DNA from: a virus
Virus record (IMG/VR): IMGVR_UViG_3300010354_000009
Location: 1 to 41,212 of that record
DNA: 41,212 bases
Direction: 5' to 3' (one strand)
The notes under the pieces were generated by a model. That model worked only from the letters and a program-made list of their open reading frames with translations, was not told the origin of the DNA and searched no databases. Positions 4,288 through 20,393 of the stretch are shown piece after piece (within the stretch, counting starts at the first letter, position 1; every line of letters begins with the position of its first letter). The position numbers and the translations under genes are program-made.

Positions 4288-5384
4288 GGATCGGTTTCGT
4301 GTCTGAGGACTGGGTCAGTGCCGGACCTCGACTGATACCGGGCGGATGCACCTACTACCGGTGCATGCTGCCAATGAACGCTGCCGGACCGTACGCCCAA
4401 GTCGGCAAGCTCGCATTCACCGCTGCCGGTGGTTTCGGGGTACGTGTCAACGGTGACGAGGCCGTGTTTGGGTTTGACCAAATCGTGTTCAAGATGGTCA
4501 TGCACAAGTGGATTCCGAAGCAGATGGAGATCGCACAGGCTTTGGGTCAGCGCATCATCGTGGACATCGATGACCATTTTGATGGGTTGCATGACGACAA
4601 CAGGGCGAAAGCAATCACGGATCCAGAACGGAACCGTGCCACGAACCGGGAGCATCTGCGCCGTATCGTGGAACTGGCGGACACGGTCACCGTATCGACG
4701 CCATTCCTTGCCGACTATTACGCCGATAAGGCCCGTGACGTGAGGCTCGTGCGGAACGGTATTAACCCGAATCAGTTCACGGTCCGTCCGGTACGCAACG
4801 AGAAGCCGGTGATTGGGTGGGCGGGTGCGATGGGCTGGCGGTCCAGCGACATTGACACGCTGCGCTCCTGGCTGCCAGCGTTTCTTGAGGAGCATGATTT
4901 TTTGTTCTTGCATGCGGGGGATGACCCTGAGCAGCCTCGGTTTGCGGACCGTGCCGGCGTGCCAGCGGAACGGATGCTCCTGTCTAGCATGCGCCCGTTG
5001 CCGAAGTATCACGAGATGCTGCAGTTTGATATCGGGATCGTGCCGTTGAACGACATCCCGTTCAATCATGCGAAGAGCGCGATCAAAGGCTTGGAGTATG
5101 CCGCTGCCGGCATCCCGTTCGTGGCACAAGCCCTACCGGAGTATCAACGGATCCACGATATGGGCGTGGGGCGTGTCGCCACGACACCAGACGATTGGGT
5201 GCGGGAACTCACGGCCTTGCTGGATTTCAAGACCCGTAAGCGTGAGGCGAGGTGGAATCACGAGCTGGTCATGCAGGATCACACGATCCGCAACACGGCC
5301 CACGACTGGGTTGCAGTGTTTGAGGATTGGGATATGACCCTGCCGATCCGCACCTCGACCATCGCCTACAGGGACTCAATCTGA
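4284..5384 (+). CDS. Glycosyltransferase, GT-B fold (GT4-like)
   Basis: 366 aa, TTG start overlapping the preceding stop. The N-terminal half begins RIGFVSEDWVSAGPRLIPGGCTYYRC and contains IIVDIDDHFDG and the TVSTPFLADYY segment typical of GT4 acceptor domains. The C-terminal half has the nucleotide-sugar pattern VRNGINPNQF, KPVIGWAGAMGWRSSD, then DIGIVPLNDIPFNHAKSAIKGLEYAAAGIPFVAQALPEY, which includes the E(x)7E-like donor motif region. Full-length for the family. It is coupled to a DUF115/Maf-like gene downstream, so the pair may build a glycan on host surface, virion or modified DNA. The acceptor cannot be read from sequence. Confidence 0.85.
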   Translation: MRIGFVSEDWVSAGPRLIPGGCTYYRCMLPMNAAGPYAQVGKLAFTAAGGFGVRVNGDEAVFGFDQIVFKMVMHKWIPKQMEIAQALGQRIIVDIDDHFDGLHDDNRAKAITDPERNRATNREHLRRIVELADTVTVSTPFLADYYADKARDVRLVRNGINPNQFTVRPVRNEKPVIGWAGAMGWRSSDIDTLRSWLPAFLEEHDFLFLHAGDDPEQPRFADRAGVPAERMLLSSMRPLPKYHEMLQFDIGIVPLNDIPFNHAKSAIKGLEYAAAGIPFVAQALPEYQRIHDMGVGRVATTPDDWVRELTALLDFKTRKREARWNHELVMQDHTIRNTAHDWVAVFEDWDMTLPIRTSTIAYRDSI

Positions 5385-6019
5385 TGGACATCTATGTGCT
5401 CGGGTCCGGTGCAACCCTTGACCACATTAAGCCCCGGTTCTTTGAGAACAAGCACGTGATCGCCACGAACCTTGTGGGGGAGCGCCTCGGCTTGTACGAC
5501 GTTGGGTGCAGGCGCCTGTTCACGCACAGTCACTATCACGAGGACACGTTCATGCTGGCGGAGAAGTATCCGCATCATTTCTTTTGGACACCGCTCGGGG
5601 ATCAAGGACATTCTGCGGAACCGAAACGGGACGATCTGCCGAACGTCGTGTTTTACCCGCACGAGCCCACGAAGTATGACTTCAACGTGGATGACGCGTG
5701 GCCCAGGCACGACAGTGGATTGATTGTGGGATCGACTAGTGTCCACGGCAGCATGCACCTGGCATGCAAGCTGGGTGCCGGCACCGTGATCCTCGTCGGC
5801 GTGGACTGCGGGCTACTGGATGGGCGAGCGAATCAGGAAGGCTACGACTCAGGGAACCTCGTCACGAGTGACACGATCGGGTGGCTTGCCCGTTGGGAGC
5901 TGCACCTACGAGAGGTGAAGGACCGCTTGAGAGCGATATACCAGGTGGACTTCCACAGCCTGAACCCGTTCATCAACCTCAACCTTGAAGGCCACGAATG
6001 GACGAACCCACTGCGGTAG
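5384..6019 (+). CDS. DUF115 / Maf-like protein (MptE-like fold)
   Basis: 211 aa from the ATG of a TGATG overlap. It starts DIYVLGSGATLDHIKP, a Rossmann-like GSG loop, and later has LIVGSTSVHGSMHLACKLGAGTVILVGVDCGLLDG, the core motif of DUF115 proteins. That group includes archaeal MptE-type 6-hydroxymethylpterin pyrophosphokinases and bacterial Maf/sialyltransferase-like proteins. Next to a GT4 enzyme, the glycosylation branch is more likely than pterin synthesis. This is the last gene of the rightward operon; a structured gap follows. Confidence 0.7.
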   Translation: MDIYVLGSGATLDHIKPRFFENKHVIATNLVGERLGLYDVGCRRLFTHSHYHEDTFMLAEKYPHHFFWTPLGDQGHSAEPKRDDLPNVVFYPHEPTKYDFNVDDAWPRHDSGLIVGSTSVHGSMHLACKLGAGTVILVGVDCGLLDGRANQEGYDSGNLVTSDTIGWLARWELHLREVKDRLRAIYQVDFHSLNPFINLNLEGHEWTNPLR

Positions 6020-6020
6020 G

Positions 6021-6222
6021 TGGTTGTGTGTGGGAGTCAAACCCACGCCTTTCGGACTTGCTGCGCTGGAATGCAGATTCCTGTACCCGTGTTCCCAGGC
6101 CAGCGTTCACGGATGTTCAGTCCGTGCGGTGACGGCCGATCCGGCTAGGCATGTACTCCACGGAGTTCCCTGCGGCTTCTCGCTAGCAGTGTCGGTCCCG
6201 CCGATACCGCTTCGCACAACCA
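6021..6222 (-). ncRNA. Candidate structured RNA with tRNA-like 3' domain
   Basis: No gene is apparent between two convergent stops. The minus strand can fold into a closed multi-branch: an outer stem TGGTTGTG/CACAACCA (6215-6222 with 6021-6028); a 10-bp hairpin AGCGGT..TCGG/CCGA..ACTGCT (6185-6211); ACTCC-GT-GGAGT (6155-6166); CACGGA-7 nt-TCCGTG (6108-6126), itself flanked by pairing GGCC at 6098-6101 and 6134-6137; GGAAT-4 nt-ATTCC (6068-6081); and a T-arm-like GTGGG-TTTGACT-CCCAC (6030-6046) next to the closing stem. It resembles a tRNA/tmRNA acceptor plus T-arm enclosing ~150 nt of hairpins, but I cannot match tmRNA or a tRNA intron. The strand choice rests on the T-arm. Confidence 0.4.
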
Positions 6223-6230
6223 TGATCATC

Positions 6231-6842
6231 TTACCGCTTCCACGGTGGTTCACCACCAAGAAACTCCACCATTCGGTCCACGGCACGCTCTTCACGGCGA
6301 CGCACCGTCCGCTCATGCACCTCAAACTGCTCCGCCAGCGACTCCCACGTCCGGTTGTCACGGTAGATGCAGGCCAGCAGGTACTGATCCTCGATCTTCA
6401 AGTCAAAGAACGCTGCCCGAACATCGATGATCATCGCCAGACGATTGTTGCCTTCGCTTGGACGGGCCGGTGTCCTCGCCTCATGCGACTCCGTGTGCTG
6501 ACCGGACACCCAGTCGTCCTGATTCCAGATCACCGGCAGGATCTCCCGAACCATCGCGGGCGTGTAATAGTGCAAGTCACCTGGCTGCAGGTGGGAGCGG
6601 CGGCGACGCTCCTTCGCCACGATATTCAGACAGTACTGACGGCACGCGTTCCGCAGTTTGTTCTTCCCATGCGTGCCCTGCTCCTTCCACAACACGACCT
6701 TCTCAATGTGACTAACCATCCACAGGTTCGCTTCAGCGACCAGTTCGTCCGTGGACACGAGTCCACGGGCGGACCGTGCCGCACTCATTGCACCCTGCTT
6801 CGCGAGCCGGACCTCGGTCTCCCCGATCCAGTCCTCTACCAC
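6231..6842 (-). CDS. RNA polymerase sigma-factor-like protein
   Basis: 203 aa, GTG start overlapping the upstream phosphoesterase stop. The C-terminal ~45 residues (DQYLLACIYRDNRTWESLAEQFEVHERTVRRREERAVDRMVEFL) look like sigma region 4, with a helix-turn-helix around ESLAEQFEVHERTVRRR. The N-terminal part (STDELVAEANLWMVSHIEKVVLW...LRNACRQYCLNIVAKERRRRS) has the helical character of region 2, including a basic aromatic segment. It is short compared with primary sigma factors and may be a divergent phage sigma or an HTH activator. As last gene of the leftward operon it could switch transcription to later genes. Confidence 0.6.
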   Translation of the reverse strand: MVEDWIGETEVRLAKQGAMSAARSARGLVSTDELVAEANLWMVSHIEKVVLWKEQGTHGKNKLRNACRQYCLNIVAKERRRRSHLQPGDLHYYTPAMVREILPVIWNQDDWVSGQHTESHEARTPARPSEGNNRLAMIIDVRAAFFDLKIEDQYLLACIYRDNRTWESLAEQFEVHERTVRRREERAVDRMVEFLGGEPPWKR

Positions 6843-14340: not shown

Positions 14341-14396
14341 ACTACCGCATTTCCCTCACAAAAAGCCCCAACATGGGACTTAGAAACACACTTTTG

Positions 14397-14421
14397 TGTC
14401 CGAGGGGGGAATCGAACCCTC
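14397..14421 (-). other. attP: Candidate attP core: 3' end of a class II tRNA gene
   Basis: On the minus strand the sequence reads as T-arm GAGGG-TTCGATT-CCCCC (14421-14405; one A-C mismatch) followed directly by a 7-nt acceptor strand CTCGGAC (14404-14398) and discriminator A (14397), i.e. exact tRNA spacing. A small hairpin ACAC-CGTT-GTGT (about 14428-14439) upstream resembles the long variable arm of Ser/Leu tRNAs. The rest of the tRNA is absent. It lies ~90 bp before the integrase gene, the classic attP position. Confidence 0.6.
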
Positions 14422-14446
14422 TTGCTAACACAACGGTGTGGTTCTG

Positions 14447-19416: not shown

Positions 19417-20393
19417 TACGTCAGATACCTGACGATGACAATACCGGAACCACCAGTAGGAACAACTGATCCATTTGCCGCGCTAGCGTTACCGCCGCCC
19501 CCACCTCCGGTGTTCGCGGTTCCGGGTGTGCCAACGGTTCCGCTACTAGCGGCCCCTGCTCCGCCTCCTCCTGCGCCACCAGTTCCACCGGCTCCGTTAT
19601 AACCCTGTCCACCTCCACCGCCAGCATAGTTAGTCGCGCTACCGCTGATGGAGTTTGACAGACCCCCACCACCGTTTCCTCCAGTAGTGCCAGTTGCAAC
19701 GGAACCAGCCGCGTTTGCACCCCCACCACCAGCGCCGGACGCCCAGTTGGCGATTGAGTTCTGGTACCGATAAAGACCGTTGCCGCCCTTGTTCCCCTGT
19801 GATGTACCAGCGATACCAAGGTAGGTGCCGAGAGCAAAACCGCCCTGCATTGAGTATGGGCTGTTGCCGCCCGTTCCAGCACCACCACCTGAGCCGCCAA
19901 AGAGCAGTTCATGGACTCCAAGTGTTGCGATGCCATTGACGGTGGCATTGCCGTATCCACCACCGCCACCGCCACCGAGGGCAACGTAACGGTCAAACAT
20001 TGACGCACCGCCCTGAGCGCCAAAGTAGTTATAGGTGAAACCGTCGATATTGAATGTTGACCCGGTACCACCAGCACCGACATTGACCCGGTAACTGTTT
20101 CCACCGACAAGAGAAATATTTGTTGCGGAGATGTACCCTCCAGCACCGCCGCCACCGCCGCCGCTGCCAGCGCCATTTACGCTTGGGATTCCGCCGCCGC
20201 AGCCACCGCCACCAACTACAAGAATGTCTACGGTAAGCGACGAATCATTGACAACGAAGAAATCTGCGCCCGTAGCGGTAAACGTGTGGATCGTGTAGGA
20301 ACCAGAAGTAGTGATCGTCCCACCAGATGCACGGCCGCCTAACGACGCACTCATATTGAAGAATGTTGGGTACTTCAATCTTGAGATTGCCAT
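19416..20393 (-). CDS. Glycine-rich tail fibre/adhesin
   Basis: 325 aa. From residue ~60 to the end the protein is dominated by GGGG, GGGGGGGYGN and GSGGGAGTGG clusters, the poly-Gly II type sandwich found in phage tail tips and adhesins. The N-terminal ~55 residues (MAISRLKYPTFFNMSASLGGRASGGTITTSGSYTIHTFTATGADFFVV) contain the HTFTATG-like 'glycine-rich domain' entry strand. Such fibres mediate host binding. Its position between small decorative proteins and tail genes agrees. Confidence 0.8.
   Translation of the reverse strand: MAISRLKYPTFFNMSASLGGRASGGTITTSGSYTIHTFTATGADFFVVNDSSLTVDILVVGGGGCGGGIPSVNGAGSGGGGGGAGGYISATNISLVGGNSYRVNVGAGGTGSTFNIDGFTYNYFGAQGGASMFDRYVALGGGGGGGYGNATVNGIATLGVHELLFGGSGGGAGTGGNSPYSMQGGFALGTYLGIAGTSQGNKGGNGLYRYQNSIANWASGAGGGGANAAGSVATGTTGGNGGGGLSNSISGSATNYAGGGGGQGYNGAGGTGGAGGGGAGAASSGTVGTPGTANTGGGGGGNASAANGSVVPTGGSGIVIVRYLT

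Follow-up and report, generated by a model that had tools for sequence, protein, structure and literature searches.

A tRNA-like RNA family without a recognizable anticodon arm in environmental phages

Comparison of homologous loci showed that many unrelated environmental phages carry a conserved RNA with an acceptor-like closing stem, a D-arm-like hairpin, a T-arm, and, in place of the anticodon arm, a domain that differs from lineage to lineage. The RNA was studied in a 41,212-base IMG/VR viral record, IMGVR_UViG_3300010354_000009 (the whole stretch analyzed, here called the window), where it sits between the stop codons of a sigma-factor-like gene and a convergent gene. Single-sequence folding energy was ordinary (z of -0.75 on the minus strand; the plus strand was better, at z -2.2) and would therefore not have revealed the element by itself, while neither Rfam 15 (no family at the gathering score) nor ARAGORN (0 tRNA/tmRNA) matched the window or the homologous loci. 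Comparison is thus the sole deciding evidence, and it is decisive: the homologues keep the same ends and covary strongly. The initial annotation, made on the window alone, had proposed that a tRNA acceptor/T-arm domain encloses an insert of ~150 nt, in a layout like that of tmRNA but with no tag frame, which the homologues bear out, and had suggested a new phage ncRNA class or a tRNA mimic, a reading that the shared boundaries and covariation support. It had also named Rfam and ARAGORN searches (which returned nothing for the window element), covariation in homologues (found), and a conserved coding ORF across the region as a refutation (no such ORF was found). The features of the window copy and its neighbors are as follows.

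6019..6222, minus strand: whole tRNA-like RNA, with T(-1) at 6222, the starting G of P1 at 6221, and A-C-C at 6021-6019; homologues share these boundaries
6231..6842, minus strand: upstream sigma-factor-like gene (PHROG sigma-K/transcription regulators); stop codon 8 nt before the RNA
5384..6019, plus strand: convergent neighbor gene without assigned function; its stop codon borders the RNA 3' end
6215..6221, minus strand: 5' strand of P1 (acceptor-like stem), GGUUGUG, pairing with 6028-6022; 98% of cells paired over 15 sequences
6022..6028, minus strand: 3' strand of P1, CACAACC; base 6029 is unpaired between T-stem and P1
6210..6214, minus strand: linker CGAAG between P1 and D-arm, near-invariant in 15 sequences
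6193..6209, minus strand: D-arm-like hairpin CGGU-AUCGGCGGG-ACCG; stem retained, with the free N-N' pair seen as all four Watson-Crick types
6047..6192, minus strand: central domain replacing the anticodon arm; covariation in 9 longer homologues
6183-6181/6065-6063, minus strand: central-domain helix GCG/CGC
6173-6170/6076-6073, minus strand: central-domain helix GCAG/CUGC
6163-6159/6091-6087, minus strand: central-domain helix CCGUG/CACGG
6150-6144/6104-6099, minus strand: central-domain helix GCC(U)AGC/GCUGGC
6126-6108, minus strand: central-domain hairpin CACGGA..UCCGUG
6062-6047, minus strand: variable-arm region at the end of the central domain
6030..6046, minus strand: T-arm GUGGG-UUUGACU-CCCAC; double-sided changes in 3/5 pairs, 100% paired

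The window also encodes a metallophosphoesterase, a sigma-like regulator, a DnaB-like helicase, a PD-(D/E)XK exonuclease, a cytosine methyltransferase, and a tyrosine integrase. Since the cultured relatives of the metallophosphoesterase are nearly all actinophages, this gene set and its relatives point to a putative phage of Actinobacteria. Immediately before the tyrosine integrase gene, a sequence like the 3' half of a tRNA (14390-14440; reverse strand GAGGGTTCGATTCCCCCCTCGGACA) is likely an attP core that corresponds to a tRNA gene end.

All copies have in common an end-closing helix of 6 to 9 bp, whose letters differ while pairing is retained, the D-arm-like hairpin GCGAAGCNGUANNGGCGGGACNG, the T-arm GG-UUCGAYU-CC, and, where the anticodon arm of a tRNA would be, a variable domain between the two arms. 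The 8-bp outer stem TGGTTGTG/CACAACCA (6215-6222 with 6021-6028) and, inside it, the T-arm-like GTGGG-TTTGACT-CCCAC (6046-6030, minus strand) are present exactly as initially described. The "10-bp hairpin with bulge" (CGCTGG/CCAGCG) proved specific to the window copy: its covariation score lay at or below that of shuffles, and the homologues favored another inner fold. The homologues added the D-arm-like hairpin, which the initial annotation had left unmentioned, and a canonical UUCGAYU T-loop in all copies except the window, where it reads UUUGACU. Because A-C-C (6021-6019) comes after the closing stem, the RNA 3' end more likely lies near 6019. A73-C-C follows P1 in 7/9 long members and is absent from most short ones, and a single unpaired base usually breaks the P1/T-stem stack. 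By sequence and covariation, the D-arm and T-arm could form a tRNA-like elbow; the three-dimensional D-loop/T-loop contact itself is inferred.

Homologues were found in 18 further IMG/VR contigs, giving 19 records with 16 distinct sequences of about 90 to 240 nt (the shortest 92 nt): the window, L017, L025, L046 (also L086), L099, L119, L162, L129 (with an assembly gap inside the RNA), L141 (also L164), L154, L155, L157, L159 (also L151), L150, L149, and L161. Three contigs with the same RNA at 71 to 73% identity and the same ends came from blastn against loci gathered via a neighboring gene, and the set was enlarged by pattern scans, the helicase neighborhood, and a covariance model (R1). The last scan, with the linker/D-loop letters GCGAANCNGTANNGGCGGGAC only, yielded further, very different carriers; these, too, have a T-arm farther downstream and a closing stem, and the pattern had specified neither. 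Membership is least secure for L161, which was omitted from the core alignment because only 3 pairs make up its T-stem and the register of its closing stem is shifted.

The core alignment (P1, linker, D-arm, and T-arm; 54 columns and 15 sequences, hand-assembled around motifs, central domain excluded) had a covariation of 0.595, compared with 0.172 ± 0.025 after shuffling (0/500 shuffles reached the observed value) and at most 0.214 in slid controls, with 99.2% of cells paired and double-sided changes in 10/16 pairs. In this alignment, a bulged base was removed in L157, N stands for a missing spacer in L154, and the unread bases around the L129 gap were filled with N and the D-stem letters CCG (the last G is absent from the assembly). 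For some of these sequences, the search pattern had contained the linker CGAAG; P1 had never been in any search pattern, yet it changed on both sides in 6/7 pairs. Likewise, the D-motif pattern fixed only the linker and D-loop, and the free D-stem N-N' pair was complementary at 16/16 loci with a downstream T-arm (some of them same-contig or near-identical copies), compared with 1/6 of the loci without one (seven in all; L160 ends too early to judge). Across the whole fold, inner helices included, the nine longer members (the window, L017, L025, L099, L119, L162, L154, L141, and L046) reached 0.353, compared with 0.128 ± 0.018 when shuffled. With the D and T stems held and P1 left free, constrained folds gave P1, the D-arm, at least one central arm, and the T-arm in every copy, and an additional hairpin before the T-arm in most copies.

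Very divergent phages thus have compensatory changes in each of the core helices, and these changes show selection on structure. They contradict the idea that these are decayed, functionless tRNA or tmRNA genes captured by phages, which the tRNA-like arms and sporadic presence might suggest and which we regard as very improbable. To a terminator cluster between convergent genes, one of the original suggestions, or to chance folding, we give virtually no credence: the window does have convergent genes and hairpins, but inspection of the window copy revealed no T-tracts and no intrinsic terminator (a GC hairpin followed by a T run), the homologues lie between codirectional genes, the helices covary, and the folding energy is not unusual. 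The arrangement in which a T-arm-like hairpin directly adjoins an 8-bp closing stem occurred once in the window and in 0/60 equally long windows from a first-order Markov model, in a test devised after the case had been seen.

Covariance model R2, built from eight copies including the window, scored 103.9 bits on the window copy, one of its own sequences, and recovered six copies outside its building set (E values of 7e-11 to 2.7e-25). In 97 control loci, it found only the 15- to 17-nt D-loop letters placed by the earlier search pattern and chance-level matches. All nine matches listed from 396 actinobacterial genomes (one per species; the true hosts of the carriers are not known) fall on genuine tRNAs and tmRNAs or extend into them, and no family member was thus seen among the tested host genomes; in eight cultured phages (Arthrobacter, Streptomyces, Gordonia, and cyanobacterial), the model gave no copy and two weak tRNA-like matches. 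Moreover, blastn with the RNAs of the window, L150, L149, L159, and L155 against 50,697 phage records gave no recognized homologue among the matches listed, all of which were short T-arm/tRNA matches or due to chance. Across 84,980 genomes, a gapped pattern hit once (L136), by chance and without flanking arms; the D-motif pattern was absent from 296 actinobacterial genomes, and a sigma-protein scan of viral contigs gave no result. No publication describing this RNA was found in the limited, open-licence literature available.

Among known classes, tmRNA (Rfam RF00023, clan CL00001) has a similar layout, an acceptor-like stem and T-arm closing a long insert, and the D-region GGUAUCGGCGGGA resembles that of tmRNA (e.g., GGTATCGACTGG in an actinobacterial tmRNA). 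This layout, the D-region likeness, and permissive Rfam matches to tmRNA would fit a reduced ribosome-rescue RNA with no tag reading frame. The matches, however, were T-arm fragments only (13 to 15 bits, compared with 47) and did not continue past the T-arm, barring one chance-level match on the opposite strand (pseudoknots were not systematically sought). Unlike in tmRNA, the D-stem covaries and the length is 90 to 240 nt, with one member of only 92 nt; no tag frame with resume and stop codons was consistent among the homologues, which differ by indels; and the alanine identity pair G3.U70 is absent, with U3-A70 in the window type and variation at that position. We therefore consider a tmRNA-like function quite improbable. 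Class II tRNAs and selenocysteine tRNA (Rfam RF01852) share the D-arm, the T-arm, and, in most members, the hairpin before the T-arm, and three weak permissive matches to tRNA-Sec were obtained (21 to 24 bits, compared with a gathering score of 47). The RNA differs from them in that CGAAG replaces positions 8-9, the central arm is enlarged, ARAGORN calls none, and no 7-nt anticodon loop was recognized in the predicted folds, whose central arms hold other loops (e.g., 4 nt in the 92-nt member).

The YrlA motif GNCGAANG was unmatched in most members. Bacterial Y RNAs such as YrlA are likewise noncoding RNAs with a tRNA-like module (PMC7790460), and their occurrence in mycobacteriophages is reported in a paper citing Chen 2014 (PMC12282133), so that a Y-RNA-like scaffold tethering an RNA-binding protein through its tRNA-like module can be imagined. 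It has little to recommend it, as Rfam Y RNA models gave no match even at an E value of 10 and a Ro60/TROVE gene was found in 0/18 carrier records, several of which are fragments and whose hosts are not known (the control search was positive in a control genome). GOLLD and ROOL are also phage-associated structured RNAs without known function, GOLLD lying near tRNA genes, but they are much larger (GOLLD, >400 nt) and the element has no Rfam match to them. Plant-virus tRNA-like structures (e.g., TYMV TLS) mimic the tRNA elbow as well; those lie in RNA genomes, whereas the element is a gene of DNA phages. A group I intron (GACTA...TAGTC) was rejected on layout and had no Rfam match.

In L017, L025, L046, L099, L119, L129, and L162, the RNA precedes the helicase gene, with the stop codon of the upstream gene on one side and the ribosome-binding site of the helicase on the other; in L119 and L129, this interval also holds a small additional ORF. 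At this site in sister phages, the two genes abut directly or are linked by the same spacer minus the RNA (filled versus empty: L025 versus L112-L116, L119 versus L121/L135, L129 versus L127/L128, L099 versus L109/L110, and L046 versus L131). The window RNA lies ~5 kb from the helicase site and follows the sigma-like gene, at a position that is empty in the two closest syntenic relatives; one of these has the RNA before the helicase instead (L099/L130). In other carriers, its neighbors encode terminase or head proteins, and some of these copies (L150, L159, and L155) run against the flanking genes; -10-like letters, suggestive only, occur upstream of some opposite-strand copies. Judged from these genome comparisons, with changing sites and sister phages lacking the RNA, it was shown to behave like an accessory gene, inserted at different places in different phages. 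In the phage of L150, the RNA lies between perfect 22-nt direct repeats, CTCAACGACGACGCTGCGCCCG (L168:3335-3560), as if inserted by duplication or recombination; flanking direct repeats as a sign of mobility were not seen in the other carriers. A conserved hairpin of ~60 nt (TAGTGTGGGcag...ctgTCCACACTA), possibly a terminator or attenuator, lies upstream of the helicase in L119, L121, L127-L129, L135, and L162, whether or not the RNA is present.

This placement bears on whether the fold is merely a cis cleavage signal between cistrons for RNase P/RNase Z, the excised RNA having no job. The RNA lies immediately downstream of a stop codon and frequently a short way ahead of the ribosome-binding site of the following gene, and most long members have T(-1) and A73-C-C; yet cleavage would not need a large conserved central domain with covarying helices, some copies (L150, L159, and L155) run opposite to their flanking genes, and the next gene in the window is convergent. 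We thus consider processing punctuation unlikely.

A second tRNA-like element, 81 to 83 nt, was observed in sister phages (G042:13287-13369, G040:25325-25407 on the minus strand, G044, G039, G037:3009-3089 on the minus strand, G014:7183-7332 on the minus strand, G045:63-218, and G011:40928-41002; loci L143-L146 and L208-L211). Its acceptor has 7 bp, with G3.U70 and A73; it lacks a D-stem and contains a bulged central arm and a T-arm; the central arm has three covarying helices (CCG/CGG-AGG/CCU-GGG/CCC, AUCU/AGAU-CUGU/ACAG, and UCCG/CGGA-ACCA/UGGU). ARAGORN, run on L143-L146 alone, calls none there, and the alanine-type acceptor suggests that this element is possibly charged. In the phage of L025, an apparent relative (L147; G013 near 19954, minus strand) has a T-arm with a GGGGCGT/ACGCTCC acceptor.

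As for function, it is quite possible, if short of probable, that the family represents phage-encoded, nondecoding tRNA mimics, perhaps acting as decoys or competitors for a host tRNA-binding or tRNA-cleaving factor; function and binding are untested. No codon decoding is expected because there is no recognizable anticodon arm. Since most short members lack a CCA-like 3' end, P1 varies from 6 to 9 bp, and an unpaired base interrupts the stack, it is uncertain whether tRNA enzymes mature the RNA and whether it is charged, and charging should not be assumed. Position and architecture suggest that operon-borne copies would be excised from the transcript of the upstream gene at P1, by RNase P on the 5' side and tRNA 3' enzymes at A-C-C, while opposite-strand copies would be transcribed from their own promoter. 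The D/T elbow could then bind a factor that reads tRNAs by elbow and acceptor stem, an inference without binding data. Most likely, though unproven and by analogy only, the RNA would serve as a stable decoy or competitor in host takeover or antidefense, and the variable domain may, again without proof, set specificity. Elbow mimicry captures tRNA-binding factors in other viruses (PMC4810234), and tRNA-cleaving antiphage defense is countered by a phage tRNA in the case of Septu and the tRNA-Tyr variable loop (PMC13096335). The decoy role parallels the latter and remains speculative, with no host defense partner identified and hosts not known.

That these RNAs form a new class of phage accessory RNAs, nondecoding tRNA mimics that keep the elbow, exchange the effector domain, and in the course of infection hijack host factors binding tRNA or shield them, can be put forward only tentatively. 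The differently built second element in sister phages suggests a wider, unrecognized tRNA mimicry by phages. There are few tRNA-like noncoding RNAs, and an elbow-keeping, anticodon-less phage family would probe which host factors read tRNA shape. The covariance models allow phage genomes and transcriptomes to be searched directly. The contest between tRNA-cleaving defense and phage tRNAs is an active topic, to which nondecoding decoys, if the reading is true, would be a new answer.
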